A stretch of DNA of 57,957 nucleotides from Fibrobacterota bacterium (lineage in GTDB: Bacteria; Fibrobacterota; Fibrobacteria; UBA11236). Shown here piece by piece: positions 23,985 to 44,866 of the stretch. The position numbers and the translations under genes were made by a program. The DNA lies in assembly GCA_028287465.1 (NCBI GenBank), contig JAQBPO010000083.1, forward strand, positions 1-57,957, given 5' to 3'. A model generated the notes under the pieces. The model did not search any database. It saw only the letters and a program-made list of their open reading frames with translations, and was not told where the DNA came from. The stretch's first letter is position 1; the number at the start of each line of letters is the position of its first letter.

Positions 23985-24106
23985 AGCCCAAATATTCTAC
24001 GGGCTGGATTCCCGAACACCCATAATCAATCTTGGTCAAAATAGGATTCAATACTGAAAAACCTCAAATCGGGATTTTTCCCATATATATCGAAGCGGGC
24101 AGAGAA

Positions 24107-25393: not shown

Positions 25394-25397
25394 GGCA

Positions 25398-26069
25398 ATG
25401 GATCATAGCTCGCTCTACGTAATCGTAAAAGAAATCATTTCCGGACTTTCCGCGAAGGATCAATACTTCAAATCCCTGCCGGATCAATTGGATGAGACCG
25501 TGCTACTTAACGAATTGGGCCTGGACATCATCACTCTTCCGGATTTGGCGGAGGAGCTGAAAACCCGCCTCGGCGGGCGCGATTTGGGGATTGAAAGACT
25601 GTTGAATCCGACCGATGTGAATAGCATGACCTTGGGCCAATTCCTGGCGCATATCCAATCGGCCCTGGCGCCTAAAAAAGGCACGCAAACCGTGGTTTAT
25701 GTGGACGATGAAGAGGAAAATCTTTTCATCTTCACGCGCAAATACGGGAAGAGATTGAGCCTTAAGACCTTTACGGATCCATTGAAGGCCCTTGAGTACA
25801 TCCGGAATGAGGAAAGCGTCGGCTTGGTGATTACGGATGAAGTGATGCCGAACCTAACCGGCAACCAGCTTTGCGATGAGGTCCATAAATCCAAGCCGAA
25901 ACTACGCTTCATATTGATTACCGGAAATCCGAACAGCGATGAAGACCTGATGTACCGAACCTTGAAGAAGAATCGTTTCTATGATTTCATAAACAAGCCA
26001 TTGGACTTCGAAAGGAAGGGTGAGGAGTATTTCAACCTGATCCAGGGCATCCTATCCTTCGATTGGTAA
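25398..26069 (+). CDS. Acyl-carrier-protein-like domain fused to receiver, copy 2
   Basis: 223 residues from ATG 25398, which aligns with the paralogues; another in-frame ATG at 25383 overlaps the upstream gene. The carrier-like segment has LLNELGLDIITLPDLAEEL and later MTLGQFLAHI, matching acyl carrier helices II and IV, but isoleucine follows the Asp where the phosphopantetheine serine should be. The receiver has VVYVDDEEENL, Asp147 in VITDEVMPNLTG and lysine in INKPLDF. It is 4 bp downstream of the oxoamine synthase and surely in its operon. It may serve as a phosphorylation-controlled docking partner for the synthase; that is inference. Confidence 0.85.
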   Translation: MDHSSLYVIVKEIISGLSAKDQYFKSLPDQLDETVLLNELGLDIITLPDLAEELKTRLGGRDLGIERLLNPTDVNSMTLGQFLAHIQSALAPKKGTQTVVYVDDEEENLFIFTRKYGKRLSLKTFTDPLKALEYIRNEESVGLVITDEVMPNLTGNQLCDEVHKSKPKLRFILITGNPNSDEDLMYRTLKKNRFYDFINKPLDFERKGEEYFNLIQGILSFDW

Positions 26070-29540: not shown

Positions 29541-30485
29541 TTACGGTGAGGCGTTGGCCGCGACGACCGGAACGTTGGGGAAATGGATGATGAAAAACAT
29601 CCCGGTAGCCCCCTCCACTTTCGCATTCTTCGAAAGGCCGACTATGGTTCCCCCGTGCCCTTCGATGATGGCCTTGACCAGGAAAAGGCCGAGTCCGGAC
29701 CCGCCCTTGCCCCGTTTAAAGGAGTGGTAGGCGTCGAACATCTTCTCGATCTCGGCGGTGGTGCAGCCCTTCCCGTTGTCCTCGATCATCACGCTGATCC
29801 GATCCTGCTGGGTATGGATGGAGATCGCGATATGGGACGCGCCCGCCTCCAGGGAATTCTTGAACAGGTTCAGGAACACTTGCTCCAACTTCCTGGCTTC
29901 ACCCTGGATGGGGAGGATTGCCTTATCCGAAGAGAAGGAAAAGGCGATGCCAAGTCCCTTGAAATAGCTTTCCGCGCAGGTCCTGAGCAGGGCTTGCAAA
30001 TCGAGCGGTTGGACCTCGCTGGGCCTGCCCAGGAGGGAAAGGTCGAGCACCTCCTTGGCCAGGCGTTCGATCTGTTCCGTGGCCCTTTCCAAGCGCTCCA
30101 GGGAGACCGTGGACGTCCCGGAGGGAAGATCCCTCCTGAGCAATACGGTATTGCCTTTCATGGTGGACGCGAAGTTCTTGATCTCATGGAAGATGATCGG
30201 GAAGGTCTGCCCCATCTGGGAGAAGGCATCGCCTGCGCTTCCCGCGGATTCGGGTTCCGTGACCGCACCCGGGGCTTTGGAGGAACTCCGCGAAAAGGGA
30301 AAGGTCATCAGGACTCCGGCAGCTATTGCCAAAATCGTCAGGACCACCAGGAAAAAGAAGTCCGTATCCGGATCCGGCGGCCCGGATTTCCGGAGGATCA
30401 ATTCCGCGAGCAAGCCGGCGGCCACGCTCCAGGTTAGCGCGAGGGCGATACGGCCCACGATGCCTTCAGGCAGTCCTTTACGCAT
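29541..30485 (-). CDS. Membrane sensor histidine kinase (short)
   Basis: 314 residues. Two membrane helices lie near residues 12-30 and 42-62 with almost no extracytoplasmic loop. The HisKA-like helix has His100 in IIFHEIKNFASTM. HATPase motifs are FLNLFKNSLEAG (N box), EDNGKGC (G1) and GGSGLGLFLVKAI (G2). It is third in an operon with the two larger kinases; its ATG lies inside the end of the preceding gene (8-nt overlap). It has an intact phosphoacceptor and ATP site, unlike the gene before it, so it may supply kinase activity to a mixed complex. Confidence 0.88.
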   Translation of the reverse strand: MRKGLPEGIVGRIALALTWSVAAGLLAELILRKSGPPDPDTDFFFLVVLTILAIAAGVLMTFPFSRSSSKAPGAVTEPESAGSAGDAFSQMGQTFPIIFHEIKNFASTMKGNTVLLRRDLPSGTSTVSLERLERATEQIERLAKEVLDLSLLGRPSEVQPLDLQALLRTCAESYFKGLGIAFSFSSDKAILPIQGEARKLEQVFLNLFKNSLEAGASHIAISIHTQQDRISVMIEDNGKGCTTAEIEKMFDAYHSFKRGKGGSGLGLFLVKAIIEGHGGTIVGLSKNAKVEGATGMFFIIHFPNVPVVAANASP

Positions 30486-32670
30486 TCTTCAAGGTGAGGA
30501 TGAAAAGGGCGCCCTTCCCTGGAGCGGGGACGGTTTCGAGGGTCAGGTCCCCTTCGGAGTTGCGGACATGGTTCCGCGCCACGGCCAGGCCCATCCCCAT
30601 TCCCTGTCCCGGGGGTTTGGTGGTGAAGAAAGGTTCGAAGACCCTGGATTGGAACTCCTTGGGGATTCCCGGTCCATGATCCCGGAACATCAGGCGGACC
30701 AATCCATCGCTTTGGGTCCCGGTGATTTCCAATCTACCCCGGCCGCCCATCGCTTCCGCCGCATTAAGGGCCAGGGCCTTGCATGCCTGTATCAATCCGG
30801 CTTCGGATCCGGAAGCGGTAAGCCCCAGGGATACCTCCACGGTAACATCCATGGAACCCGACTCCGCCCGGGACAAGGAATCGATCGCCCTGCGGACCGT
30901 CTGCCCGACATCGATGCGCCCACGCCCATCGGTGCCGAGGGATCCGGCCAGGACCTGCAATCCGGTGATGAGCGCTTCGCACTTCGCCAAGGCCGCTCCG
31001 GCCTTCACCACGTCGTGGCCGATGCCTTCCATAGCAGCCTCGATGCCGTACTCCCTTTCGATCTTTTTCAACGACCCGAGGGCTTCCGTGCTCGTGGCCT
31101 CCCGGTAGGCCGCGATGCGGAATTTCCCCATGCCTTCCAGGTTCCTGCTGAACCCGGACAGTACCGTCCGGATCGATTGCATCGGGCCTTCCATGGCATT
31201 GGCGACGTTTTCCGCCACATGTGCGGAGCCGTCCGCGAAGGGCGCGGGCGCGCTACCGGCTGCGGGAGAGGCCGAAAGGCCGGCGATGGGCTTCCCGGCC
31301 GTAGTCCGCATCAGGATGCTCGTCATCACCAGGGACAGGGACTGGAAAATCATCTGGTCATGGATCTCTATCTTCTCTCCCTTATGGTATTCGCCGGCCA
31401 GGATGCCCAAAGGCCGGTTATCATGGATGAGCGGCGTCATGATGAAGGAGGAAAGGTTCAAGGCCTCGAGGAAATTCCTGGATTGCTCGGCCAGGCGGGG
31501 GAGCACCTCGGCCATATCATTGGCGATGATGGTCTTGCCCTGGAGCATGGTCTGGACCAGGAGCCCATGCGAATTGTCCAGGTTGTCCTTGTACAGGAAG
31601 CGCGCGTCCATGATGAGGCGCCGGATTTCCTCCGGGTATCCTTCCGCGCCGGCGCAATGGATGTATTCCCTCCGGCCGTCCAGGAGCCAAATCTGGCCGG
31701 ACCCGAAACGCAAATCCTTGACCAAACCCTCGGCGACGATCGCGCATGCCTCGTCGGCGGTCCGGCATTCCACCAGGGTCGACGTCAGCTTCTGGAGAGC
31801 GGTCAATTTCGTATTCAGGACATCGAGAACCAGGTTCTGGTTGACCAGGGTTTCGTTGTTGAACAGGGACCATTCCAGGGATTTCTTGGCGCTGAGGTGC
31901 TTGTACCAGGAAAAACTCGCCAGCGCCCCCAGCAGGAGCGCCCCGGGCACCGCGCGGAACCACGGCCCCACGTGGATGGTCAAGGCGGCCACGACGGACG
32001 CCAAAGCCGCGATGAAAAAGACCTGCGCGGCCCGGTTGAAAACCAGGAAACCGTATTCGGGGAATTGGACGTAGTAGACGCAATTGCCTTCATTGCGGTG
32101 GACGCATTGGGGATGCTCAACCTTCGCGTAAGGCAAGCCGAAGAACAACGGGGCCGACTCATAGCAGCCAATGCGGTTGTCGCATACGTAATCCCGGGCC
32201 ATGAACCCGTCCTTGTATGTGATTTCCACCCGGAACCGGTTCTTGCCGACCTGGGTCGTCTTGTTCACGGTCTTCAAGGCCAATCGGCCTTCAATCCCCC
32301 CGATGCCCTTCATGAAGAATGCTGGCGAGGTGACCCCGGCGATGAACCCGCCGATGCGCCCGATGCTGTTCGGCAGGTTGCGGCCGACCAAGTAGGAGAG
32401 CCTTTTCTCCCCGGTCAATTCCGTGGCCGCCATGGTGACTGCCTGGGAAACCTCGTCGGAAGAATACCCGTTCAAATCGCCCAGGGTCAATCGGTCCAGG
32501 TTCATGCGGCCGAGGACCTGGTCGGTCATCACCTTGCCCAGCTTCTGGTCCATGAATTCGATGTAGCCGGCGAACAACTTGTTCGAGAAGACCTTGTCCC
32601 CCGGCTTGTAACCCGTGACTGGAGCTTCGGCGTTCTCCGGAAGCGCTTCGTCGGTCTTGGGGTGCGCCAT
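30478..32670 (-). CDS. Histidine-kinase-like sensor lacking the phosphoacceptor His (V4R-like, 2 TM, GAF, HATPase)
   Basis: 730 residues from ATG 32670, which shares a base with the upstream TGA; a GTG one codon earlier is also possible. Parallel to the next kinase: an N-terminal V4R/heme-NO-binding-associated-like region (about 20-185, with CDNRIG and CVHRNEGNC), two membrane helices, a GAF domain (about 275-430) and a dimerisation helix. Aligned with VAHEINNPLN of the neighbour this one reads VANAMEGPMQ, so the phosphoacceptor His is Asn491. The ATP site looks kept: LALNAAEAM, RDHGPGIP, GMGMGLAVA. Probably a regulatory pseudokinase or phosphatase partner. Confidence 0.85.
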   Translation of the reverse strand: MAHPKTDEALPENAEAPVTGYKPGDKVFSNKLFAGYIEFMDQKLGKVMTDQVLGRMNLDRLTLGDLNGYSSDEVSQAVTMAATELTGEKRLSYLVGRNLPNSIGRIGGFIAGVTSPAFFMKGIGGIEGRLALKTVNKTTQVGKNRFRVEITYKDGFMARDYVCDNRIGCYESAPLFFGLPYAKVEHPQCVHRNEGNCVYYVQFPEYGFLVFNRAAQVFFIAALASVVAALTIHVGPWFRAVPGALLLGALASFSWYKHLSAKKSLEWSLFNNETLVNQNLVLDVLNTKLTALQKLTSTLVECRTADEACAIVAEGLVKDLRFGSGQIWLLDGRREYIHCAGAEGYPEEIRRLIMDARFLYKDNLDNSHGLLVQTMLQGKTIIANDMAEVLPRLAEQSRNFLEALNLSSFIMTPLIHDNRPLGILAGEYHKGEKIEIHDQMIFQSLSLVMTSILMRTTAGKPIAGLSASPAAGSAPAPFADGSAHVAENVANAMEGPMQSIRTVLSGFSRNLEGMGKFRIAAYREATSTEALGSLKKIEREYGIEAAMEGIGHDVVKAGAALAKCEALITGLQVLAGSLGTDGRGRIDVGQTVRRAIDSLSRAESGSMDVTVEVSLGLTASGSEAGLIQACKALALNAAEAMGGRGRLEITGTQSDGLVRLMFRDHGPGIPKEFQSRVFEPFFTTKPPGQGMGMGLAVARNHVRNSEGDLTLETVPAPGKGALFILTLKNA

Positions 32671-34829
32671 CACGTCTTCCGGAACCGGATATTGAAGGTG
32701 GTCCCCTTCCCCGGAACCGACTGGACCGCCAGGGCGCCGCCGTATTTTTTCACGATTTCCATGGCGATGGTGAGGCCCAGGCCCGTGCCCTTGCCTGGAG
32801 GCTTGGTGGTAAAGAAGGGGTCGAAGATGCGCTTGATCGCCTCCTCGGGAATGCCCGGCCCCTCATCCCGGAAGGAAAGGGTGATATCCGAGGGCGTCGA
32901 GACCGCCCTTATCTCCAAGGTGCCCTTCTGCTCCATGGCATCGATGGCGTTGTTGATGATGGCCAGGAAAGCCTGCTCCATCTCGTTCTTGTTCACGTTC
33001 CATTCCAGGTCGGGAGGGATGTCCACCTGGATCCGGGTGTCCCCCACCACCTTGCGGGGTACGAGCTCGATGACTTCCCGGATCATGTCCGCGAAGGTTT
33101 CCTTGGCGATGGCTTCCTTCGAGGAGGATCGCGAGAACACCTTGAGGCTGTTGGCTATGCGCGTGCTCTTGTCCAGGGCCTTCTGGATCTTCTCGAACAC
33201 GAAGTTCTTCTCGGAGAGGTGGGTTTCCAGATCGTATTCATCGTCCACTTCCTTGATCCGTTTCGCCAGGTCCCCATTCAGGCCCGCTTTGGCCGCAAGC
33301 TCCCGGATCTTTTCGAGGCCTTCCACGTCCCTGCGCACGTCCGGAATGATATTGACCAGGAAGTTCAGGGGATTGTTTATTTCGTGGGCGACTCCCGCGG
33401 CCATCTGGCCCAGGGAGGAAAGCTTCTCGCTCTGGATGGCGATTTCCTGGGCGGCCAGCAATTGCCTCGAGGCGGTTTCCAATTGCTCCGTACGTTGCTT
33501 TACCTTCAATTCCATGCCTTCGAACAGGCCGGCCTTCACGAGGGATCCCGCCACGATATTGGAAATGGACTGGAACAACAGGCGATCGTTGTTGTTGAGC
33601 TTTTTCCCGCCATGGTGTTCGGCGGTCAAGAGCCCGATGGGCTCCTTTTCATGGAAGAGCGGCGTCATGATGAAGGAAGAGGCGTTCAGGGCCTTGATGA
33701 ATTCCCGGGTGCGCGGGGAAAGCTTCGCCATGGCTTCCTCAACGTCGTTGACAAGCAGGGTCTTGCCCTGTTCCAGGGTCTGGGTCAATAGGCCATAGGG
33801 ATTGTCCCAATTCTGGCCCATCTCGAACCGGGTGGCGCGGATGAAGGAATCCAGTTCCGCGGGATAGCCGTTGGCGGCCTTGTTGGCCAGGTATTTCCCG
33901 TCCTCGTCCAGCAGCCAGATTTGGCTGGAGCCGTATCCGAACGCCCGGACCAAGGTGGTGACCATCATATCGCAGGTTTCCTGGACATGGGAGGTCTGGC
34001 CCAGGGCCAGGGTCAGGTTCTGCAGGGAGGTGATTTGACTGTTGTTCTTTTCCAGTTCGGAGTTCTGCTTGGCCAGGCTTTCATTGGATACCAGGGTCCA
34101 GTCCAAGGCATGGCGCGCTTGCCGATGCTTGTAATAGGAAAAGGCCAACAGGCACGATACCAGACTGGATACGCCCAGGTAAGGGAGGCTTGGCCCGCCG
34201 ATCCCCAGGAGGGAAAGTACGGCGAGGACAAAGGCCGCCAGGAAAAATCCCAAGGCGACCTTCTTGAATACGATGAACCCGTATTCCGGGACCGTGACCA
34301 GGTATTCGCATTGGGGATCGCCCTTGAAAGCGCACCGCGGGTGATCGACCTTGGCATACGGGAGGGAAAAGAACCTCGGCATGGATTCATAGCTGCCGAT
34401 GCGGTTCTGGCAGCCGTATACCGATTCCTTGAATCCGTCCTTCCCGGATATCCGGACGCGATATTGGTTTTTTGAGATCTGCTCCGTTTCATTGATGGTC
34501 TTGGTGGCCATCTTGCCTTCGATTTGTCCCATCAGTTTCATCGCCAGAGCGGGCGAGGTCAGGCCGATTACCGTGCCCCCCACCACGCCCAGGCTTTCGG
34601 ACAGGGCCCGGCCCGCCAGATAGGAGAGATCCTCCTTGCCTGTGATCCGGATGGCGTTTTCCGTGATTTTCATGGCGAAATCCATGGTCTGGAAGCCATT
34701 GGCATCTTCCAATGCCAGCCGGTCGATATTGGATTCCGAGAGGACCCGGTTCGCCACGTCCTTCCCGAAATGCTTCTCGATGAAGTGGATCATGGACATC
34801 CAGATTTTGTTCGAATAGATCTTTTCCAT
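32670..34829 (-). CDS. Sensor histidine kinase with V4R-like domain, 2 TM, GAF, HisKA, HATPase
   Basis: 719 residues. The N-terminal region (about 1-165) resembles V4R/HNOB-type ligand-binding domains, with the telling C-x(n)-GDPQC pattern in CAFKGDPQCEY and another Cys in YGCQNRIG. Two membrane helices follow near residues 170-215, then a GAF domain (SSQIWLLDEDG, ..., PIGLLTAEH; about 270-420), a coiled coil, HisKA with His482 in GVAHEINNPLN, and HATPase with INNAIDAM, RDEGPGIPEE and GKGTGLGLTIA. All catalytic motifs are intact. First gene of a three-kinase operon, divergent from the PilZ-acyltransferase cassette with about 87 bp between the starts. Control of that cassette or sensing of its product is a natural hypothesis. 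Confidence 0.9.
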   Translation of the reverse strand: MEKIYSNKIWMSMIHFIEKHFGKDVANRVLSESNIDRLALEDANGFQTMDFAMKITENAIRITGKEDLSYLAGRALSESLGVVGGTVIGLTSPALAMKLMGQIEGKMATKTINETEQISKNQYRVRISGKDGFKESVYGCQNRIGSYESMPRFFSLPYAKVDHPRCAFKGDPQCEYLVTVPEYGFIVFKKVALGFFLAAFVLAVLSLLGIGGPSLPYLGVSSLVSCLLAFSYYKHRQARHALDWTLVSNESLAKQNSELEKNNSQITSLQNLTLALGQTSHVQETCDMMVTTLVRAFGYGSSQIWLLDEDGKYLANKAANGYPAELDSFIRATRFEMGQNWDNPYGLLTQTLEQGKTLLVNDVEEAMAKLSPRTREFIKALNASSFIMTPLFHEKEPIGLLTAEHHGGKKLNNNDRLLFQSISNIVAGSLVKAGLFEGMELKVKQRTEQLETASRQLLAAQEIAIQSEKLSSLGQMAAGVAHEINNPLNFLVNIIPDVRRDVEGLEKIRELAAKAGLNGDLAKRIKEVDDEYDLETHLSEKNFVFEKIQKALDKSTRIANSLKVFSRSSSKEAIAKETFADMIREVIELVPRKVVGDTRIQVDIPPDLEWNVNKNEMEQAFLAIINNAIDAMEQKGTLEIRAVSTPSDITLSFRDEGPGIPEEAIKRIFDPFFTTKPPGKGTGLGLTIAMEIVKKYGGALAVQSVPGKGTTFNIRFRKT

Positions 34830-34916
34830 CTACCGTAAAATCTAGGAAATAGCCCCCGCACCCAGCGGAATTTGACTTTTTTCGCCGCCGGCCCCTACAA
34901 TTCGGTGGGTTTTGTC

Positions 34917-36530
34917 ATGAATGATCTTAAAAACACCATAGCGGCCCCGCAGGGTTCCAAGCCTTCCTTGGATCCCCTTAAATTGCCGCGCGATGCCTGG
35001 CGCCCTTCCGAGTCCTCGAGCCAGCGTATCGCCCCGAGGACCATGGAACGGGAGATCGAACGGATACCGGTCTGGATCCGATCGGCGCGGCATCCGGAAT
35101 GGGTCCGCGTCCGGCTTTGGGATTATTCCATCCACGGTTTCGGAATCCTCTACCAGGCCCATTCGGGCTCCTCGGATTTCTCAGCCGAAGGCGAAGCCAT
35201 CGAATTGAAAATGCAATGGTTCGGCGCTGGCTCCGGTACGGTTCCGGGATCCTATCTCCTTCCTTGCCGGATCGAGAATTCCACCCGGGTCGAAAAAGGC
35301 CTGCGGATCGGATTGAGCCGGCTCGACCTCGTTCCACCAAGGGATGGGGACGACCCGCCTGTGCCGGCGGACTGTCTACTGGACGATATCCGTCCGCTCA
35401 GCGTCAAAATCCTGAATCCGTTCCTGTACAAGGAATGGGCCGAAGCGAAACTGATCGGGATAGGCCCCAAGGCGAGCTTCGTTTTCGAGTCCTACGATCC
35501 CTCCCTTCTGCTGTTCGATGGGGCGGCGCTCACCGTCGACATCGAGGTGCCCTTGGATACCCGGGGAATCTGCTCCGGGACCATCGATTGGATCCAGGCG
35601 GGACGGGAAGGCCGCATCATTTTCGCGATCAGGGATACGGATATCACCTTCGATCTTTCCAACGCCATCGGCGAGCATTTCGTCCAGGCCGAGATCTGCA
35701 AGCCGAGCCGCCTAGCGGAATTCGGGCTCCGGCTGAAGCGCTTCAAGGACCAGTTCCGGTTCCGTTTCATAACGACCCAGGAGGAATACGAGGCCATCCT
35801 GAACCTGAGGCGGGTCGCCTACGTCAATGCCGGAAAGGCGGCTCCGGACGCCCCTCCGGACCCCGTGGCCATGGATTTCGATTCGAGGAGCCGGCTCCTC
35901 ACCGCCTTCCACGGGGATATCCTGGTGGCCTCGGTGGCCCTGAGTTTCGGCGGCGTCCAGGGAGCGCCGCTTCGCGCCCAGATTTGCTTTCCGGATTCGA
36001 CCTTTCCCGTGCCGGTGCCGGACAAACATACCGTGGTCGAGGTCCATTCCCTGTGCACGGACTTCGATTATCGCGGCGGGGATCTTATCCAGGCGATGTT
36101 CGAGCATATAGGCCGTTCCGTCCTGTTTTCCGATCGGAAGTGGCTTTTGACCTTTACGACATCGAAGCTTTGGCCGCTTTACCGGCGGATAGGGTTCAGG
36201 AAAATCGGCGCTTCCGTCCATATGAAGGACATGGGCGGCCTGGAACATCACCTGATCCTGATGGATAGGAACACCCTCGTTTCCGGTTTGGGGATGACGC
36301 CGTTCGCGTGGAATTACTTCTTCGGGAGCATGGTCAGGGATCTCCTCGAAAAGGGCCAGCTCCGCCTGGGTTCGGCCCGCAAGGCCCGGGTCGCCTTGTA
36401 TTCCCTCTTCGCCGGGATCACCCGCAAATGGATGCAGGCCAGGATGGAAAAGGACTTCAGGGTCCTGTTGCAAAGAACCGGTTCGAACGGCGGGATTACC
36501 GGCGTAGGCCGGAAGGATGGGGAGAAATGA
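34917..36530 (+). CDS. PilZ - FeeM-like (LuxI/GNAT-fold) acyltransferase, type A, copy 1
   Basis: 537 residues from ATG 34917 (GGTGGG upstream; an open frame 15 codons longer has no site). Residues about 40-140 form a PilZ-type domain with both c-di-GMP motifs, RxxxR in REIERIPVWIR and DxSxxG in WDYSIHG. A second, degenerate PilZ-like barrel follows (about 160-265). From about residue 285 the sequence resembles N-acyl amino acid synthases of the FeeM group: FRFITTQEEYEAILNLR, RVAYVNAG, SRLLTAFHGD, then EVHSLCTDFDYRG and LYRRIGFRKIG. Type B copies read EVSR where this reads EVHS, so a conserved Arg is missing. The gene overlaps the oxygenase gene as ATGA. Substrates (acyl-ACP or acyl-CoA plus an amino acid) are inferred from the family only. 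Confidence 0.7.
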   Translation: MNDLKNTIAAPQGSKPSLDPLKLPRDAWRPSESSSQRIAPRTMEREIERIPVWIRSARHPEWVRVRLWDYSIHGFGILYQAHSGSSDFSAEGEAIELKMQWFGAGSGTVPGSYLLPCRIENSTRVEKGLRIGLSRLDLVPPRDGDDPPVPADCLLDDIRPLSVKILNPFLYKEWAEAKLIGIGPKASFVFESYDPSLLLFDGAALTVDIEVPLDTRGICSGTIDWIQAGREGRIIFAIRDTDITFDLSNAIGEHFVQAEICKPSRLAEFGLRLKRFKDQFRFRFITTQEEYEAILNLRRVAYVNAGKAAPDAPPDPVAMDFDSRSRLLTAFHGDILVASVALSFGGVQGAPLRAQICFPDSTFPVPVPDKHTVVEVHSLCTDFDYRGGDLIQAMFEHIGRSVLFSDRKWLLTFTTSKLWPLYRRIGFRKIGASVHMKDMGGLEHHLILMDRNTLVSGLGMTPFAWNYFFGSMVRDLLEKGQLRLGSARKARVALYSLFAGITRKWMQARMEKDFRVLLQRTGSNGGITGVGRKDGEK

Positions 36531-37270
36531 TCGATAGGATCAGGAACGAATGGGGGAAATCCCTCAATGATTTGCTGCGTGGGGAATTCTTCCGGCGGCT
36601 ATCGGAAGGCAAGCTGACCCTGGAGCATTATAAAATCCTGCTCCGGGAAATCTATTACAACACCCGGGAGAACCCGCAATCCTTCGCACTCATGGCCGGC
36701 CACCTCAAGGGGAACAAGCGCGACTTGTCCCCGAAGATCTTCCGGCATTGCCTTGCGGAATACGGCCACCATAACATGGCCCTGGACGACCTCCGGGCCT
36801 TGGGAGACGACGTTTCCGGGATACCGAACGCTCGGCCCCTGCCGACCACGGAAGCCATGATCGCCTTCGCGGTCTACCAAGTGCAACATTCCAATCCCAT
36901 CGGATACCTGGGCTACCTCTACCACCTGGAAATGCTGCCCGCGGGGAAAGGCGAAGGGATCGTGAAAGGCCTTTCCGCCATCGGCGTCCCGCATTCGGCC
37001 ATGACCTTCATAGAAGAGCACGCCAAGATCGACGTCACCCATACGAAATGGCTGGAGGGCTACCTCCTCGAGACCCTCGAATCCGAAGAGGATATCCAGG
37101 CGGTCATCCATTGCGCGAAGGGCACGGCACGGCTTCACGGACTCATGTTGCAAGGCATCCTGGACGCGGTCGATGGCGTTACGGGTTCCGTAGGGGACTG
37201 GACTTCGGGCGCGCCGGGCGCCGAAACGGCCGCCTCGCCCGCGCAATCCGGAAAGGCGTTGCGACCTTGA
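36527..37270 (+). CDS. Heme-oxygenase-like metal-dependent oxygenase (HDO type), copy 1
   Basis: 247 residues, all-helical. Candidate metal ligands: Glu in YNTRENP, Glu and His in EYGHHNMALDD, Glu in YHLEM, and the H-x3-D-x2-H pattern in EEHAKIDVTH, with another His in LHGLMLQG. The pattern matches the heme-oxygenase-like diiron oxidases/oxygenases (UndA, CADD, SznF, BesC relatives), which act on fatty acids, amino acids or aromatic acids with iron and O2. The start overlaps the acyltransferase stop (ATGA), so the two are made together and probably act in one pathway, for example oxidation or decarboxylation of the acylated product. Substrate unknown. Closest relative in the window is at 42410. 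Confidence 0.8.
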   Translation: MIDRIRNEWGKSLNDLLRGEFFRRLSEGKLTLEHYKILLREIYYNTRENPQSFALMAGHLKGNKRDLSPKIFRHCLAEYGHHNMALDDLRALGDDVSGIPNARPLPTTEAMIAFAVYQVQHSNPIGYLGYLYHLEMLPAGKGEGIVKGLSAIGVPHSAMTFIEEHAKIDVTHTKWLEGYLLETLESEEDIQAVIHCAKGTARLHGLMLQGILDAVDGVTGSVGDWTSGAPGAETAASPAQSGKALRP

Positions 37271-37290
37271 AAAAGCGGCATGGTTCCAGA

Positions 37291-38961
37291 ATGGAAAAGG
37301 AAGCCAGGCAAGGCGGGTCGATCTCGGACGAATCGGAGCTGGATCACGATGGCTCAACCACCGAAAACGATTGGTCACCGATCCCGGTACAGGATCGGAA
37401 GCACGGCTCCAAGAAACACGTCCGTCCGTCCGTCAAGGAAGATAAACGCGTCCAGAACCGGTTCTCCCAGCGCGAACTCGGTTCGGTTTCCGTAGCCATC
37501 CGCCTCTCCGAGGACGCCTGGCAACCGGTCAGGCTTTGGGACTTCACGTCCATCGGCTTCGGGATCCTCTATCCCGACGAAGGCCGTGACAAGCCCCAGG
37601 AAGCGCCCTATCGGGAGGGCGATGAGATAGGACTCCGCATCAAGATCGAAGCGAACCAGGAATTCGAGGTGCAGTGCGAGGTCAAGAACGTCCGACGGTG
37701 GAAGAACGGCTTCAAGCTCGGACTGCGCCGGATGGATCTCAATTTCCCGCGCCCCGTAAACCTGGAAAGGCGCGAAGGCTTCCGTCTTCCCATCGGCCCC
37801 TCCCTTTCCCTGAAGGCCCGGGTGAGGCATCCCTTCATCTACGGCCATTGGTGCGCCATGCAGGCCTCGGATTTGAACAAGAACATGGGCTTCTCCTTCG
37901 TGTCCCATGACGAGTCGATCCTGCTCTTCGAAGGCATGGAATTCCCCATCTATTTCGATCTCGCCTCCTATCGCCAATTCCCCATGCGCGTGCGCGTGGC
38001 GTGGATCAATGCCACCAGCGCCCAGGAGGTCCGCTTCGGCGTCGAATGCGTGGACCTGGATTTCCGCCTCCACAATGGCATCTGCGATTTCCTTCTCTAT
38101 TCCCGCCAATGGACCCCGGCGCGGTTGTTCGAAGCCGGGTTCCGCGTCCAGCAGGTCAAGGGCCATCTCCGCTTCCGCTCGGTCAAGACAATGGAGGATT
38201 ACGCCGAAGTCCTCTATCTGCGGCGGGACGCCTACGTGGGCGCGGGTAAACGTTCCCGGGAGACGACCCCGGAACAGATGGCCACGGCCTTGGACGGCAA
38301 GAGCCGCATCCTGATGGCGCACCACCATGGCCGCCTGGTCGGGACGATTACCTTCACCTTCCCCACTTCCGAGGAGACGGTGCTGGACAGCCAGGCCGGA
38401 TTCCAAGGCGGGAAGTATCCCGTGCAGCTTCCGCCAAAGGCCAATCTCATCGAGGTCTCGCGCCTCTGCGTCCACCAGGAATACCGTGGCACGGACGTCC
38501 TGCAAGGCATGTTCGAGCATGGCCTGAAGCATTTCCTGATGTCCGATCGGCATTGGCTGCTGACCTCCGCCATGGACGAACTGATGCCGATCTACGAACG
38601 CATCGGGTTCAAGAAGCTGAAGGCCAGTTACAAGCACCCGCAGCTGAACAACAAGGAGCATCATCTCATCATCGCCACGCGGACCTCCTTCCTGGGCGGT
38701 TTCGGCATCAACCTGTTCGTATGGAATTCGCTCTTCGGGGAATTGATCCAGCACCTTATTTCCCACAACCTCGTCGCCATTTCCACGTTGGAGAAGGCCT
38801 TCATCCGCGCTAAGCTCCTGTTGCAGCCCCTTTCCAGGCGGTTCCTGGCCGCCCGTTCGGAAAAGGCCTTCCGGCAGCACCTGGAGACCTTGCGCCTCGC
38901 CTCCTACAAGGAACGCCCGGCCGAGGCCCCTATCCCGGACTTCGGGTTCGAAGAGGGGTGA
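37291..38961 (+). CDS. PilZ - FeeM-like acyltransferase, type B, copy 1
   Basis: 556 residues from ATG 37291. A TTG at 37267 overlapping the oxygenase stop (TTGA) is an alternative, and the open frame reaches 37048 inside that gene. After a polar tail comes a PilZ-like barrel (about 57-155) with RFSQREL and WDFTSIG. A second PilZ-like barrel (about 158-280) starts with RREGFRLP. The acyltransferase region runs from about residue 290: FRSVKTMEDYAEVLYLR, RDAYVGAGK, SRILMAHHHGRLVG, then IEVSRLCVHQEYRGTDVL with the Glu-x-x-Arg typical of LuxI/FeeM-type synthases, and YERIGFKKL. A basic helical tail follows. Third gene of the cassette, ending at a hairpin terminator. Confidence 0.7.
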   Translation: MEKEARQGGSISDESELDHDGSTTENDWSPIPVQDRKHGSKKHVRPSVKEDKRVQNRFSQRELGSVSVAIRLSEDAWQPVRLWDFTSIGFGILYPDEGRDKPQEAPYREGDEIGLRIKIEANQEFEVQCEVKNVRRWKNGFKLGLRRMDLNFPRPVNLERREGFRLPIGPSLSLKARVRHPFIYGHWCAMQASDLNKNMGFSFVSHDESILLFEGMEFPIYFDLASYRQFPMRVRVAWINATSAQEVRFGVECVDLDFRLHNGICDFLLYSRQWTPARLFEAGFRVQQVKGHLRFRSVKTMEDYAEVLYLRRDAYVGAGKRSRETTPEQMATALDGKSRILMAHHHGRLVGTITFTFPTSEETVLDSQAGFQGGKYPVQLPPKANLIEVSRLCVHQEYRGTDVLQGMFEHGLKHFLMSDRHWLLTSAMDELMPIYERIGFKKLKASYKHPQLNNKEHHLIIATRTSFLGGFGINLFVWNSLFGELIQHLISHNLVAISTLEKAFIRAKLLLQPLSRRFLAARSEKAFRQHLETLRLASYKERPAEAPIPDFGFEEG

Positions 38962-39021
38962 TTGGGCCGCGTGCCCAGGGACCCCCATTCCCGCGCCTTT
39001 GACTAGGCCAGGCTATCCCGG

Positions 39022-39040
39022 ACCGCTTGAAAGCGGTTTT
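39022..39040 (+). terminator. Hairpin terminator after the first acyltransferase cassette
   Basis: ACCGC and GCGGT pair around a short A/T loop and are followed by TTTT. It lies 60 bp after the stop of the type B gene and touches the stop of the convergent cyclase gene, so it closes the 34.9-39.0 kb transcription unit. Confidence 0.6.
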
Positions 39041-40599
39041 CATTCCGCGAATTCATGGAAGCCGTCCCATTGTTCGAGCATTTTCCCGTAACCGTTCGGA
39101 TCCGATCGTTTGGCATCGCACCTGCGCAGGTAAAAAAGGTAGATGCGGTCCATGGGTTGATTCATGAGATGGCGATGAGGCGGCGATTGCGCCAATAGCT
39201 CTTTGAACATGCGTTCCGCCTCCCCGAATCCCCTTTGGAAATAGGTCCGGAGTGCCTTGTCGAGCAGATCCTTGGTCGAATCCTTGTATTTGACGACGTC
39301 CTCCGCCTGGTGGCCGTAAAGCTCGTAGATCCGCAAGCCTTGCCTGGATCCCCTGACCTTGACCTGATCGATCCATCGGGAATGCGGATAGCCGCCCATC
39401 GATTCGATGATTTCCTCGGTAACGAGGATATCCACGTTGTATTTCTTGGTCAGCGCTTCGAGCCGGGCGGAAATGTTGGCGGCATTACCGATTACGGTGA
39501 GATCGAACTTCTTGACGCTGCCTATGTTGCCGTGGGTGACCATGCCTCGGGCGATGCCCATCCCGTTCTGGATGGGTTGGAAATCCCGGTTTCCCTTCAT
39601 CATGAGCTCATTGTATTTCTGGAGGGCTCGGCGGCAATCCATGGCGGCCATGCCGGCCCTTTCGGGATTTTCGAAAAGCGCCATGAAGGCGTCGCCGATG
39701 AATTTATCCATCTCGCCGCCATGTTCCTCGACGGCATCGGTCATCATGGAGAAATACGAATTGAGAAGCTTGATCTGCTCCTGGGGATGCATCCGCTCGG
39801 TCAACGCGGTGAATTCGCGCATGTCGCAATTCAGGACCGTGAAATCCTTTTCGGTCGGCAAGAGGGTCCTCGGGTCCATCCCCTTTTCTATAAAGGCTAC
39901 CAGGGAAGGGCGGGTGTAGGATTGCAAGGTTTCGATGATGGCGCCTAGCTCCCTGGCGTGCACCAGGCTTTCCTCGGCCACCTTGCGCGCCTGATCCGCT
40001 TCCTGTTCGGAAAGGTGCAAGGCCATCCGGGTCTGCAGCCCCCTCTCCCTTTCTTCCAGGATCTTATAATGGGAATTCTCCAATGCCGTTTTGATGGCGT
40101 TCGCGAAGAACCCGCTGAAGTATCCCACGATTTGGGCTTTCAGGCATTCCCCGATCCAGTGCGACGATCCCGGCTGGAAATGGAGGTACAATAAGCTCGC
40201 CGCGGCTCCGGAAAGCGGAAACAGGAACGGGAAAAAATACGGTTTGGCGATCAAGCCATAGAGCATGCCGGCGAATGCCAGCGACGCGCTCCAATAGATG
40301 TTCCCGTCATTCAGAAACCAGAAGTAAGTGAACGCGAAGGGCAATTCAATCGCGATGATGGTTTCGAAATAGACTTTGTGGCCGAAACCCAGCGGCGACT
40401 GCCGCGGGTAGAATAGGAACGGGAGCACGCCCAACGGAAGAAGGATACGGAGAACCAATGACTCCTGGTATCCGAATCCGTATTTGAGGAGCAAGTAGAA
40501 CGGAATATGGCTTACGATTCCGATCAACCCGATCAACGGAATGGCTTTTTGCAGAAAGCCGTAGTCGGTATTCAACCTGGGTATTTTGAAGAGCGCCAT
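39040..40599 (-). CDS. Membrane class III adenylate/guanylate cyclase, copy 3
   Basis: 519 residues from ATG 40599, chosen by comparison with the 524- and 528-residue paralogues (MALFKIPRLNTDYGFL aligns with their starts); the frame is open to 40740. Hydrophobic helices occupy about residues 20-170, followed by a coiled coil and the linker YTRPSLVAFIEKG. The cyclase domain has metal aspartates in LNCDMREF and FIGDAFM, lysine in EMDKFIGD, Thr in FDLTVIGN and transition-state Asn/Arg in ANISARLE. The C-terminal helical segment ends WDGFHEF. It is more divergent than copies 1 and 2. It sits between the two acyltransferase cassettes and is divergent from the second. Confidence 0.88.
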   Translation of the reverse strand: MALFKIPRLNTDYGFLQKAIPLIGLIGIVSHIPFYLLLKYGFGYQESLVLRILLPLGVLPFLFYPRQSPLGFGHKVYFETIIAIELPFAFTYFWFLNDGNIYWSASLAFAGMLYGLIAKPYFFPFLFPLSGAAASLLYLHFQPGSSHWIGECLKAQIVGYFSGFFANAIKTALENSHYKILEERERGLQTRMALHLSEQEADQARKVAEESLVHARELGAIIETLQSYTRPSLVAFIEKGMDPRTLLPTEKDFTVLNCDMREFTALTERMHPQEQIKLLNSYFSMMTDAVEEHGGEMDKFIGDAFMALFENPERAGMAAMDCRRALQKYNELMMKGNRDFQPIQNGMGIARGMVTHGNIGSVKKFDLTVIGNAANISARLEALTKKYNVDILVTEEIIESMGGYPHSRWIDQVKVRGSRQGLRIYELYGHQAEDVVKYKDSTKDLLDKALRTYFQRGFGEAERMFKELLAQSPPHRHLMNQPMDRIYLFYLRRCDAKRSDPNGYGKMLEQWDGFHEFAE

Positions 40600-40751
40600 T
40601 CGGTACCTTGAAATCCAAATGGATTCTACAACCTGGCCCCGCAAAACATCAAAATCGTGCCGGAAAACCAAAAAGCTCCAATTACGCGCACATATTATGC
40701 CACCATCGACCTGAAACCCCACGATCTGAGCCATAGCCAACCCCTAAGATC

Positions 40752-42413
40752 ATGCCGGGACCGGTTAAACTTCAAAAGCTCTCCCAGAGATCATTGCAAG
40801 ATGCGAATCCAGCCATTTACACGGGCATGCCGATGAAAACCCTGGATCCCAATTTCCTTCCAGCCGAGGTATGGAGGCCCTTGGAACCGATTTCCGGGCG
40901 ATCGTCGAACCGTATCAGCGAGCGCGAACTGGAACGGATACCCGCTTGGATAAGGGTCCGCGATCGGGCCACCGGATCCGAAAAGGACATTCCCGTGGCC
41001 CTATGGGATTGCTCCGCCTTCGGATTCGCGATATTGATGGCGGCGGGAAAGAACGGAAACGATCCGTTAATGGCAGGCGACGGCATCCGGCTCAAGCTTG
41101 GTTTGGCAGGAGCCGACCTTACCGCGGATTGCATCGTCCAGAACACTTCATTCTTCAGGAACAGCCATCGGATCGGCCTCAGCAGGACGGATATGCAGGT
41201 TCAACCGGTCCGGAGGGATCCGGACGGCCCTCAAATCGGTGTCCCAAAGGGTGGGTATCTACGGCTTCCCGAGACATCGGATATCAAGGCCGAAATCCGG
41301 AACGCCATCCTGTTCGGCGAATGGAGCACCATCCGCCTCAGCGGCATCCGATCGGGTTTGGCACTGGACTTCACTTCCAAGGACGGTTGCCTGCCATTGT
41401 TCACGGGCCAGGAACTGGAAATCCGGCTTTCCCTGCCTACGTCGAACGCGAACTCTTACACCGCGAGGATTTCCCGCCTGGAAAGGTTGGATGAGGAATC
41501 GCTCCGGGTCCGGATGGAACCGGTTGCCCTTTCCGCTTCGCTGGCCAATGACCTGGCCGAATTGTTGGCTACCGAATGCCGCATTTCCCCCGATACCTTG
41601 AAGGACCTGGGTTTCCCCATTCGGTTCTTCAGGAACAGGGTCGCCGCCGGATTCGTCGAGTCCATGGAAGATTATGAAAAGGTGGTCCAGCTTCGCCGTA
41701 ACGCCTATGTCGAAGCCGGTAAGAAGGAACCCGATACCACCCCGGAAAAAATGTCGTCCCAATGGGACAAGCTCAGCCGGATCCTGTGCATATTCCACGA
41801 GGATACCCTGGTAGCCTGCGCTACCATGACCTTTCCCTCTTCCGATACGCCGACCCTGCGATCGCAGTCGGCCTTCCCGGGCGGCGAATACCCCTGCCCC
41901 GTTCCCGCCAAGACCGACTTTATCGAAATCAACGGGCTATGCACCCATAAGGATTACCGGAAGGGGGATCTCCTCCACGCCGTTTTCGAACACGTCGCCC
42001 GGGCTTTTCTCTTTTCGGATCGCAATTACATCCTGACCTTGGCCGACGATACCCTGCTTCCCCTGTACGGGAAAATCGGTTTTGTGGACCTGGGCCAGGA
42101 ATGCACCTTCCTGGATCGCAGGCATCATCTCATCCTGGGGCACAAACGGACGCTCCAATCCGGGTGGAGAATGCCGGTCCTCGCTTGGAACCGCGTCTAT
42201 GGAGACCTGGTTGCGGACCTCCTGGAGCGGAAGGCCCTTAAAATAGGCTTGAGAGAACGGTTACTGGTGCGAGCCAAGCTCGCATTACGGCCCTTGGCCG
42301 ACAAATTGGCCGGCGACAGGATTGAATCGATATTCCGGAAAAACCTGAGGACCGGAGCTGACCGGATCGTTTCAATCGATAGCTACCCGGTCCCGAAAGG
42401 AGACACGACATGA
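40752..42413 (+). CDS. PilZ - FeeM-like acyltransferase, type A, copy 2
   Basis: 553 residues from ATG 40752; ATGs at 40827 and 40833 would give an N terminus closer to copy 1. The PilZ domain has RELERIPAWIR and WDCSAFG, both binding motifs intact. The second barrel is degenerate (no Arg pair). The acyltransferase part has MEDYEKVVQLR, RNAYVEAGKK, SRILCIFHEDTLVA, then EINGLCTHKDYRKGDLL where type B enzymes have EVSR, so the Arg is lost here as in copy 1. LYGKIGFVDLG follows, then a basic helical tail. It overlaps the next oxygenase gene as ATGA, exactly as copy 1 does. The shared A-type loss suggests a distinct second substrate or a non-catalytic subunit. Confidence 0.7.
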   Translation: MPGPVKLQKLSQRSLQDANPAIYTGMPMKTLDPNFLPAEVWRPLEPISGRSSNRISERELERIPAWIRVRDRATGSEKDIPVALWDCSAFGFAILMAAGKNGNDPLMAGDGIRLKLGLAGADLTADCIVQNTSFFRNSHRIGLSRTDMQVQPVRRDPDGPQIGVPKGGYLRLPETSDIKAEIRNAILFGEWSTIRLSGIRSGLALDFTSKDGCLPLFTGQELEIRLSLPTSNANSYTARISRLERLDEESLRVRMEPVALSASLANDLAELLATECRISPDTLKDLGFPIRFFRNRVAAGFVESMEDYEKVVQLRRNAYVEAGKKEPDTTPEKMSSQWDKLSRILCIFHEDTLVACATMTFPSSDTPTLRSQSAFPGGEYPCPVPAKTDFIEINGLCTHKDYRKGDLLHAVFEHVARAFLFSDRNYILTLADDTLLPLYGKIGFVDLGQECTFLDRRHHLILGHKRTLQSGWRMPVLAWNRVYGDLVADLLERKALKIGLRERLLVRAKLALRPLADKLAGDRIESIFRKNLRTGADRIVSIDSYPVPKGDTT

Positions 42414-43114
42414 ATATCATCGGCGAAATGGAATCGGAATGGGAACGGTGCTTCCGAACGCTTTTGACAGGGGATTTTTTCCGGAAATTGGAGAACGGCC
42501 AACTGACCCGTGAGCACTACTTTTCCTTCTTGGCGGAAGAGTATTTCAACACGACCGAAAACCCCAGGATCATGGCGTTGTTCATCGCCCATCTGGACAC
42601 GGATGCCCACAAGACTGCCGGAAAACTCCTGAAACATGCGGCCATGGAAATGGGCCATAACGATATGGCGCTCCAAGACCTTGCGGTCCTGGGCGGAGAT
42701 CCGGAAAAGATCCGCAGGGGCAGGGCCCTACCCACCACAGAAGCCTTGGCCGGGTTCATATCCTTCGAGATCCAGCATCGGAATCCGAAAGCCTTCCTGG
42801 GATACCTCTATCATATGGAGAGCATCTCGCCGCGGCTGGTCGGTAAAGCGGGAAATACCTTCAACCGTTTGCAGATTCCCGAAACGGCCTTCACCTTCCT
42901 GCGCGAGCACGTCGAAGCGGACCCGACCCATCTTCGATGGAACCGGGATTACCTTGAGGAGTTCGTGCTTTCGCGTGAAGACCTTGACTCGGTGCTTTAT
43001 GGATTACGCGGGACATGCATGCTGCATGGCATGATGTTCCAGGGGATTCTGGACAGCGTCGAAAAACTGGGGTACTTCTCGGAAAGACCGGCAGCGGCCA
43101 AGGTACCGGGATGA
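42410..43114 (+). CDS. Heme-oxygenase-like metal-dependent oxygenase (HDO type), copy 2
   Basis: 234 residues, all-helical and a clear paralogue of the protein at 36527. Shared candidate ligands: Glu in FNTTENP, Glu and His in EMGHNDMALQD, Glu in YHMES, H-x3-D-x2-H in REHVEADPTH, and His in LHGMMFQG. The motif GRALPTTEAL is also shared. Because these positions persist while the rest has diverged, both copies are probably active iron enzymes. ATG 42410 overlaps the acyltransferase stop. The type B acyltransferase follows after 24 bp. Confidence 0.8.
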   Translation: MNIIGEMESEWERCFRTLLTGDFFRKLENGQLTREHYFSFLAEEYFNTTENPRIMALFIAHLDTDAHKTAGKLLKHAAMEMGHNDMALQDLAVLGGDPEKIRRGRALPTTEALAGFISFEIQHRNPKAFLGYLYHMESISPRLVGKAGNTFNRLQIPETAFTFLREHVEADPTHLRWNRDYLEEFVLSREDLDSVLYGLRGTCMLHGMMFQGILDSVEKLGYFSERPAAAKVPG

Positions 43115-43138
43115 AGGCGCCTGGCCTGGAATAACGGA

Positions 43139-44866
43139 ATGTCATCCCGATCAAAATCCAAATCGAAAAACCGCCCGAAGCTCCCACCTCCTCAGGGTGC
43201 ATCGGTAGCGGTATCAGCTGATTGGGCAGCCGTGCCTGGAATCGATCGCTCGAAGCTGGAAACCGGTGAATACAAATTTCCCGGACTCGCCGAAAATCGC
43301 GGCCAGGAAAGGATACCCCAGCGGGAACTGGGGCTTGTAGTAATGGCAATCCGATTGCCGGGCCCGGGAAATTGGCTGCCGGTCGAACTCTGGGACTTCA
43401 CCTCCATCTCTTTCGGGGTCACCTACGCGCCTGAGGCGCCAGTTTTGGATCCGGCCGGGTCGTCTCCATTGGATGATGGCCCGCTCGATATCGAATCCTT
43501 GCCTCTTTCTGTGCACGCGGGAGATGAAGTCGAAGTCCGGATCCAGGTCACCCACCACCAGGATTTCCGGATCTGGTGCCAGGTCAAGAACATCGTCCCC
43601 TGGAAGGACGGTGTTAAAATCGGATTGCGCCGCCTCGACATGGGTTTTCCGCAATCCGTCGACATCGATCGACGCGAGGCTTATCGCCTGGCGCTGACTC
43701 CCGGCGTGGATCTCAATGTCAGGATCAAGCATCCCTTCGTGTACGGCCATTGGTGCCGTCTCAAGGTTTCCGACATGAACCGGAACATGGGGCTATCCTT
43801 GGAATGCCATGATCCATCCATCCTGGTTTTCGAGGGAATGGAGCTGCGCCTGCAATTCGAACTCGCCGCTCATCGCGAGTCCGAAATGGAGGTGAGGGTC
43901 GCGTGGGTCCATGCAACCGAAGCCAATCATGTCAAATTCGGCGTCGAGTGCCTGGATATGGAGTGGAGCCTGCACAACGCCATCTGCGGGTACCTGATGC
44001 TGTCCCGGCAATGGACCCCTGAGCGGTTGAAAGGCGCCGGATTCCGGGCGCAACACGTGAAGAGCCGGCTCCGTTTCCGTACGGTCAAGACGATGACCGA
44101 TTACGCCGAAGTACTGCATCTGCGCAAAGACGCATTCGTCGGCGTAGGCAAGGAATCGGAAACCACCCGCCCCGAAGACATGGCCCATCGTCTGGACGGC
44201 GTGAGCCGGATCCTCATGGCCCACCACCTGGAAAAGCTGGTCGGTTCCCTCACCTTCACTTTTCCCACTTCCGAGGAAATGATCCTCGACAGCCAAACCG
44301 GATTTCCCGGGGGGAAATACCCCGTCGCGCTTCCACCCAAGGCCAATGTCATAGAGGTTTCCCGCCTATGCATCGATGGAGAATACCGCAGCACGGATGT
44401 GTTGCAGGGCCTGTTCGAACATGGCATCAAGCATTTCCTGATGTCGGATCGCCATTGGTTGCTGACATCGGCCGTTTCGGAACTCCTGCCATCCTATCAG
44501 CGCATCGGATTCAAAACATTGGGCGCCAGCTACAGGCATCCCGCCTTGAACAATAAGGAACACCACTTGATCATGGCGCATCGCGATGCGTTCCTGATGG
44601 GAAAAGGGATGAACCTGTTCGTGTGGAACACCCTTTTCGGCGACGTAGTGCGCCATCTTCTCGAAGGAAATCTCATTACCTTGGGGAGGTTCAAGCGGAC
44701 CTACATCCTGGCCAAACTGCGTCTGCGATCCCTTTCCGGAAGAGTCCTGGAAAACGAGGCGAAGCGCTCCTTCCGTCGGCACCTCGATACCCTTCGCCGG
44801 GTAGCCGTTTCAGCCCGGGCCGAAAGGCCGGAAAAAAGCGTTCCGGTCACGGACCCCTTGGATTGA
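43139..44866 (+). CDS. PilZ - FeeM-like acyltransferase, type B, copy 2
   Basis: 575 residues. A Ser/Lys-rich tail precedes a PilZ-like barrel (ERIPQREL; WDFTSIS, the final Gly of the motif replaced by Ser) and a second barrel starting RREAYRLA (about residue 180). The acyltransferase region has FRTVKTMTDYAEVLHLR, KDAFVGVGK, SRILMAHHLEKLVG, IEVSRLCIDGEYRSTDVL and YQRIGFKTLG. It is strikingly close to copy 1 from PTSEEM to the NNKEHHLI motif. A short hairpin without T-run (44866-44881) follows, then about 110 bp to the ABC-F gene. It closes the second cassette. Confidence 0.7.
   Translation: MSSRSKSKSKNRPKLPPPQGASVAVSADWAAVPGIDRSKLETGEYKFPGLAENRGQERIPQRELGLVVMAIRLPGPGNWLPVELWDFTSISFGVTYAPEAPVLDPAGSSPLDDGPLDIESLPLSVHAGDEVEVRIQVTHHQDFRIWCQVKNIVPWKDGVKIGLRRLDMGFPQSVDIDRREAYRLALTPGVDLNVRIKHPFVYGHWCRLKVSDMNRNMGLSLECHDPSILVFEGMELRLQFELAAHRESEMEVRVAWVHATEANHVKFGVECLDMEWSLHNAICGYLMLSRQWTPERLKGAGFRAQHVKSRLRFRTVKTMTDYAEVLHLRKDAFVGVGKESETTRPEDMAHRLDGVSRILMAHHLEKLVGSLTFTFPTSEEMILDSQTGFPGGKYPVALPPKANVIEVSRLCIDGEYRSTDVLQGLFEHGIKHFLMSDRHWLLTSAVSELLPSYQRIGFKTLGASYRHPALNNKEHHLIMAHRDAFLMGKGMNLFVWNTLFGDVVRHLLEGNLITLGRFKRTYILAKLRLRSLSGRVLENEAKRSFRRHLDTLRRVAVSARAERPEKSVPVTDPLD

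Follow-up and report, generated by a model that had tools for sequence, protein, structure and literature searches.

Two acyltransferase–oxygenase cassettes of a Fibrobacterota bacterium as candidate c-di-GMP-gated operons for an N-acylated signal

What is made by two neighbouring copies of an acyltransferase–oxygenase–acyltransferase cassette? The question is raised by positions 1 to 57,957 of contig JAQBPO010000083.1, which were analysed and are called the window here. The contig belongs to a genome of 5.8 Mb, 98% complete, from an uncultured Fibrobacterota bacterium. The cassettes lie at 34917–38961 and 40752–44866 on the plus strand. Both are operon-like and carry the genes in the order A-HDO-B, where A and B are acyltransferases and HDO is a heme-oxygenase-like oxygenase. 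ATGA overlaps were found at both A/HDO junctions: the start of H1 at 36527 precedes the end of A1 at 36530, and H2 begins at 42410, before A2 has ended at 42413. A class III cyclase gene (Guanylate_cyc 3e-15) is located between the copies on the minus strand. A sequence-only reading of this DNA had claimed the shared gene order, the ATGA coupling and the intervening cyclase gene, and all three were confirmed. We consider, with a probability of about 0.5, that both cassettes are operons for the biosynthesis of a small molecule that is N-acylated and modified by an oxygenase. Its synthesis would be gated by cyclic di-GMP (c-di-GMP), and the product would probably be a signal.

The acyltransferases were judged by the curated 27-bit cut-off of the Pfam FeeM family (PF21926). 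A1 (29.6 bits, 6.9e-7), B1 (45.8 bits, 7.4e-12) and B2 (37.3 bits, 3e-9) matched the family, and A2 came slightly under the cut-off (24.2 bits, 3.2e-5). Pfam PilZ was found in B1 and B2. A1 and A2 align with B over the full length and retain the PilZ residues RxxxR...DxSxxG. The AlphaFold2 model of B2 (pLDDT 78) has a GNAT core preceded by two beta-barrel modules at the N-terminus. In the Foldseek search, the model matched the c-di-GMP PilZ/YcgR structures 3kyf, 5vx6 and 5y6f, with the tandem PilZ part matching YcgR and MotI. It also matched GNAT structures, FeeM (2g0b, TMt ~0.70) and the N-acyl-homoserine lactone (AHL) synthases BjaI, MesI and RpaI (~0.62), at a low identity of 12–15%. Several of the matched AHL synthases are CoA-dependent. 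When PDB sequences were searched with the A/B profile, the only matches were marginal ones to GNAT proteins and chance ones. The first PilZ module has RxxxR and DxSxxG in all intact A proteins and DxTxxG/S or DxSxxG in B, where Thr may stand for Ser and where Gly is replaced by Ser in some proteins including B2. The catalytic Glu of the FeeM core is present in all A and B proteins. The Arg of the ExxR pair is present in every B (as ExSR), and Glu and Arg are both kept in 7/7 B homologues; in every A, the Arg is replaced by Ser, Gly or Cys. Therefore, B is the better acyltransferase candidate. As judged from these residues, A may use another acceptor or act as a partner subunit of B. The host genome has at least eight GGDEF genes above the cut-off, and c-di-GMP is therefore plausible there.

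Both oxygenases belong to the Pfam family Haem_oxygenas_2 (PF14518; H1 6e-21, H2 7e-24). The AlphaFold2 model of H2, built from a 14-sequence alignment, is all-helical (pLDDT 88) and shows the seven-helix heme-oxygenase-like fold. Its Foldseek matches are 3DDE (TM 0.86), CADD and UndA. The residues E80, H83, E137, H167, D171 and H174 of H2 align with the six dimetal ligands of CADD, which we take to be E81, H88, E142, H174, D178 and H181, and these six positions are invariant across the 14 HDO homologues. The alignment thus gives H2 a set of three histidines and three carboxylates. A review from 2026 (PMC13108848) describes such a ligand set for both UndA and CADD. Assignment as a CADD-type para-aminobenzoate (pABA) synthase was rejected on the NCBIfam TIGR04305 scores (26.8 and 31.3 bits against a 200-bit cut-off) and on the position of the sacrificial Tyr27, which is aligned with Phe/Leu in the window HDOs. 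Two further claims of the sequence-only reading were borne out by these results. One was a metal-binding helical oxygenase, now seen as the predicted HDO bundle of H2 with conserved ligand positions. The other was the joining of PilZ modules to a LuxI/FeeM-like GNAT core, which is supported by Pfam and the B2 model, with the PilZ part of A recognised by alignment only.

The sequence-only reading would have been refuted if the gene order did not recur outside this genome, but the A-HDO-B order was found with conserved synteny in four of the five sister genomes (G002–G005), one copy in each. A GAF-histidine kinase gene (HKa) lies divergently upstream of the cassette in these four genomes. An ABC-F gene lies downstream in three of them, and the contig of G005 ends inside B. 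In G001, no HDO match was obtained. Its B gene adjoins genes of an alpha-oxoamine synthase (AONS), a receiver-domain protein and a cyclase, and its A gene, on another contig, has an internal stop and has lost the second Arg of RxxxR, the sole loss among the A proteins. The HDO tree places H1 in a group with G003/G002, apart from H2, which is grouped with G005/G004; the A proteins are divided in the same way. Therefore, the two cassettes are old paralogous lineages, and a recent tandem duplication was ruled out. Between the two copies, the HDOs are 41% identical, the A proteins 35% and the B proteins 55%. Only the window genome carries both lineages. The dN/dS ratios of the cassette genes against the sister genomes are well under 1, with saturated dS, so that by this sequence measure the genes are under purifying selection. 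In a set of 168 Fibrobacterota genomes, matches to the full A/B profile are limited to the genus of the window; two genomes from a different family have only a distant PilZ-PilZ protein, in which FeeM is reduced to a faint remnant. G004 has an extra degraded A/B pair (L009:5703-7666) composed of a FeeM-only A', which has the ExxR Arg, and a PilZ-only B', without HDO. A second, distant HDO of G005 (L013:8757-9455) is clustered with GH3/auxin-synthetase-like, enolase-superfamily and methyltransferase-like genes. This cluster is a separate natural-product locus, with the neighbour families judged by eye.

Table 1. Features of the window and frame-changed FeeM genes of related loci (6TM, six-helix membrane domain).
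Feature	Position	Strand	Description and basis
CYC2	22398..23984	-	Class III cyclase with 6TM domain, in divergent orientation to the AONS gene; Pfam, profile comparison
AONS	24032..25393	+	AONS family enzyme, nearest serine palmitoyltransferase, sub-cut-off; family profiles
Receiver-domain protein	25383..26069	+	Overlaps the AONS gene; receiver beside AONS kept in relatives
HKb	30478..32673	-	GAF-HATPase sensor kinase, paralogue of HKa; Pfam
HKa	32670..34829	-	GAF-HisKA-HATPase sensor kinase; divergent from A1, placement kept across the genus
Promoter candidate	34872..34901	+	Sigma-70-like, TTGACT-N18-TACAAT; 15 nt upstream of A1, 10/12 consensus matches
A1	34917..36530	+	Tandem PilZ-like + FeeM-type GNAT acyltransferase, 537 aa, A class; Pfam, alignment
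H1	36527..37270	+	HDO; Pfam Haem_oxygenas_2, ATGA overlap with A1
B1	37267..38961	+	PilZ-PilZ-FeeM acyltransferase, B class (ExSR present); Pfam, motif alignment
CYC1	39040..40740	-	Class III nucleotide cyclase with N-terminal six-helix membrane domain; Pfam Guanylate_cyc 3e-15
A2	40752..42413	+	PilZ-like + FeeM-type acyltransferase, 553 aa, A class; Pfam just sub-cut-off, alignment
H2	42410..43114	+	HDO, 234 aa; ligand positions E80 H83 E137 H167 D171 H174; Pfam, alignment, AlphaFold2 model
B2	43139..44866	+	PilZ-PilZ-FeeM acyltransferase, 575 aa, B class; Pfam, AlphaFold2 model, motifs
FeeM split at A8G	L018, L019, L020, L021, L023, L025, L028-L033		e.g. L020:8826-8834, L023:7507-7515

FeeM and HDO are paired in other phyla as well. 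When one genome per species was scanned, 18 HDO loci were obtained that do not belong to Fibrobacterota. In Burkholderiales, a FeeM-family gene adjoins HDO in 14/15 loci, and the third gene in those 14 loci encodes a hybrid histidine kinase that combines a six-helix membrane domain with LuxN-like kinase parts. The gene orders are FeeM-HDO-kinase and HDO-FeeM-kinase. In the Burkholderiales loci inspected, FeeM and HDO have no recurrent neighbours for lipid transport or the envelope. The pair extends to gammaproteobacteria, with a FeeM-HDO pair in Agarilytica (FeeM 1.6e-8), and weaker FeeM/GNAT neighbours lie beside HDO in P. syringae plasmids, Deefgea and Aestuariibacter. FeeM and HDO are paired elsewhere without PilZ, and therefore the GNAT part is what accompanies HDO. 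The location of FeeM-HDO pairs beside quorum-sensing-type membrane sensors suggests undescribed chemical signalling. A DUF3419 gene is added in the HDO loci of Deefgea, Aestuariibacter and Pyxidicoccus, and DUF3419 enzyme genes follow related HDOs at L024:8681-9778, L026:8770-9849 and L081:5711-6793. FMN_bind_2 genes in L024 and L026 and an AdoMet decarboxylase gene in L081 are also near those HDOs. These neighbours hint at substrates derived from S-adenosylmethionine for some HDO relatives. Clusters of the form T_hemolysin–AMP-ligase–HDO–short-chain dehydrogenase/reductase (SDR) contain more distant HDOs, which were found in Variovorax, Alteromonas and Vibrio plasmids.

The Burkholderiales FeeM genes have an unusual feature. 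In 12/14 of them, a -1 frame change occurs exactly at an invariant cg/gg-AAAAAAAAG-aga run (A8G, A AAA AAA G), and the protein similarity runs on both sides of it. The other two genes (L017 and L022) have an open frame, and the A8G run is absent. A sequencing error is unlikely because cultured strains are included. On this sequence pattern, the A8G run qualifies as a strong candidate site of programmed frameshifting, or of slippage during transcription, within the gene of an autoinducer-type synthase.

A sensor domain links the two phyla. In hhalign, the six-helix domain of the Burkholderiales kinases and the N-terminal domain of the window cyclases are homologous (96%, E 5e-9 and 1e-9). The controls, which were 20 column shuffles, the reversed profile and other membrane proteins, were all at or below 4.4%; the sole higher control (45%) was a 28-residue soluble kinase linker with no membrane sequence. 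The profile comparison and its controls were needed because pairwise blastp/phmmer was almost blank for this domain. A PDB sequence search with the 6TM domain of the kinases gave no match. Within the genus of the window, a 6TM cyclase gene lies beside an AONS-family gene in 5/6 genomes and is divergent from it in at least four. This pair is at 22398–25393 in the window and is also found in G001, G002, G003 and G005. The second 6TM cyclase of the window, CYC1, is the one between the two cassettes. The AONS-family enzyme is placed between serine palmitoyltransferase (SPT), BioF and CqsA-type enzymes. From gene content, this enzyme and the 6TM cyclase resemble CqsA and CqsS as a synthase and its receptor, here with cyclic AMP (cAMP) output. 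It is known that the membrane domain of CqsS is able to drive a class III cyclase (PMC4821796). The receiver proteins at 25383–26069 and 27281–27952 have an N-terminal carrier-protein-like region of ~90 aa (PP-binding E 0.045 in one) without the phosphopantetheine Ser, and they are often near the AONS gene.

Some details of the gene starts and signals complete the layout. The start of B1 is most likely TTG 37267 or ATG 37291, instead of 37048. With the longest frame taken, the start of CYC1 is ~12 nt from A2. The promoter candidate of A1 is supported by its position alone, comparable sites being no more common in the window than in shuffles, and the promoter and terminator scans of the window gave site numbers not above shuffles. 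The sensor kinases at 30478–34829 have an N-terminal domain of ~200 aa, which showed no significant Pfam match and carries a CxFxGDxxC-like signature at its end.

The following mechanism is proposed for the cassette. B would be switched on when c-di-GMP occupies the N-terminal PilZ module (RxxxR...DxSxxG). The LuxI/FeeM-like GNAT domain of B would move a fatty acyl group from acyl carrier protein (acyl-ACP) or coenzyme A (acyl-CoA) to an amine, most likely an amino acid. The amino-acid substrate is favoured because the PilZ-fused synthases Nas343/354 make N-myristoyltyrosine (PMC4897644). A, a paralogue with an altered active site, would serve a second acceptor or be a regulatory partner of B. 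With a dimetal centre and O2, the HDO made together with A would oxidise either the acyl amino acid or a precursor of it through hydroxylation, desaturation or oxidative decarboxylation. The product would leave the cell, most likely as a lipophilic signal. It could be sensed by six-helix sensors like the one on the neighbouring cyclase, with cAMP output, and perhaps also by the divergent kinases. The PilZ, acylation and oxidation steps are proposed because of fold, motif and operon evidence, and the sensing step because of the gene association in two phyla. A broader proposal is made tentatively. FeeM and HDO may provide an oxidised N-acyl autoinducer across the phyla, sensed by a six-helix domain that is joined to a kinase in Burkholderiales and to a class III cyclase in Fibrobacterota. 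The synthase would be gated by c-di-GMP in Fibrobacterota and by A8G frameshifting or slippage in Burkholderiales.

Several observations weigh against the signal operon. Pfam PilZ gave no match in A1 or A2, and the second PilZ module is degenerate in sequence. A may not be an N-acyltransferase, judging from the missing ExxR Arg. The profile homology between the FeeM parts of the window and of Burkholderiales is moderate (hhalign 76%). The HDO chemistry in the subfamily may vary because some members sit with DUF3419 or with T_hemolysin, AMP-ligase and SDR genes. In the other genomes, the 6TM cyclase lies by the AONS gene, 8–10 kb from A-H-B or on another contig, and CYC1 may therefore be a receptor for the AONS product.

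Three other explanations were weighed. It is known that c-di-GMP commonly controls surface and envelope products. Accordingly, the cassettes might produce a bulk N-acyl aminolipid or surfactant under c-di-GMP control, with no signal and with sensors that are coincidental or sense the envelope state. Two acyltransferases in each of two cassettes could suit bulk output, and the only characterised PilZ-fused N-acyl amino acid synthases (NAS) make N-myristoyltyrosine, a surfactant with antibiotic activity (PMC4897644). We regard this explanation as rather unlikely, since FeeM and HDO are tied to a single sensor kinase in the 14 Burkholderiales loci, the inspected loci share no recurrent lipid transport or envelope genes, and the 6TM domain is common to the Burkholderiales kinases and the window cyclases. 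A sphingoid-like pathway is improbable. In it, the AONS enzyme encoded 10 kb upstream would make a long-chain alpha-amino ketone, A and B would N-acylate it in the manner of CerS, and HDO would hydroxylate or desaturate the product. Bacterial CerS is an N-acyltransferase (PMC11324152), the AONS enzyme is nearest to SPT (342 bits for SerpalmtaseCFB; PDB 3a2b/8guh 1.8e-75), and the AONS gene and A-H-B share one contig in the window genome (G000), G002 and G003. However, 342 bits is far from the 640-bit SPT equivalog cut-off, the carrier-like N-terminus of the receiver protein has no phosphopantetheine Ser, and G004 has A-H-B with only distant AONS paralogues on other contigs. An SDR, as a possible reductase, occurs only in G000; the gene at 26092–27060 was rejected as a CerR candidate on its absence from all sister genomes. 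The ceramide pathway itself was rejected on the SPT score, the reductase and the carrier Ser.

The last explanation is that A and B are YcgR-like c-di-GMP effectors with a dead GNAT domain that act by protein contacts, and that HDO works alone in a pABA-type or stress role. The YcgR and MotI matches of the tandem PilZ part and the loss of the ExxR Arg in A are in its favour, and the pABA synthase CADD is an HDO, as is the desiccation protein DtpC (PMC13232832). It is nevertheless very improbable, because B keeps the catalytic Glu and Arg in 7/7 homologues, the window HDOs reach only 27–31 of the 200 bits for CADD with Tyr27 aligned with Phe/Leu, and FeeM is paired with HDO elsewhere without PilZ.

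If the signal-operon reading is true, a large HDO subfamily that is mostly uncharacterised would gain a chemical output, and an autoinducer-type synthase would gain a second-messenger switch. The reading would also provide a candidate ligand source for the six-helix domains of class III cyclases, the function of which has long been an open question (PMC4821796). In Burkholderiales, the unit is compact, with three genes, and occurs in strains that can be cultured, and thus the idea is directly testable in ordinary laboratory hosts.

The relation to known systems can be stated as follows. The claim that no described pathway has this gene set stood for the combination: no description of the A-H-B operon, of FeeM-HDO or of the FeeM-HDO-6TM-kinase unit was found in the open-licence papers searched. 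It did not stand for the enzyme type, since the PilZ-fused N-acyl amino acid synthases Nas343/354, which make N-acyltyrosine, were reported in 2016 in a paper that also cites NasP, a cAMP-activated NAS (PMC4897644). Nas343 and Nas354 also have a FeeM-type GNAT domain fused to a c-di-GMP-type PilZ, and nucleotide control of N-acyl amino acid synthesis was proposed for them. However, their NAS domain is N-terminal with one C-terminal PilZ, a single gene is enough and HDO is not reported. In contrast, A and B of the window have two N-terminal PilZ modules, FeeM C-terminal to them and a helical tail, and the two paralogues flank the HDO gene. FeeM (PF21926, 2G0B) and the LuxI-type synthases resemble the window proteins in the predicted GNAT/LuxI core, the catalytic Glu and, for B, the ExxR pair; the window proteins differ by the PilZ extension, the low identity and the absence of the Arg in A. 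The HDOs UndA, CADD, SznF, BesC and MboA share the seven-helix fold and the set of three His and three carboxylates, and 3DDE (Sden_3740), whose function is unknown, is structurally the closest. The window HDOs form their own subfamily, which is genetically tied to FeeM-type acyltransferases and for which no characterised member was found in the open-licence literature searched. The bacterial ceramide pathway (Spt, AcpR, CerR, CerS) is similar in having an SPT-like AONS and N-acyltransferases in one region, whereas the window region is without an SPT-level score, a conserved reductase and a functional carrier protein. The CqsS/LqsS-type quorum receptors and the known 6TM class III cyclases (PMC4821796), likened by architecture, have the same kind of short-loop six-helix membrane domain with kinase or cyclase output. 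Here, the sensor is instead linked to FeeM and HDO in Burkholderiales, or to AONS and A-H-B in Fibrobacterota. PilZ-NAS fusions, HDOs and six-helix receptors are each known, and there is a real chance that their combination represents a new signalling family.

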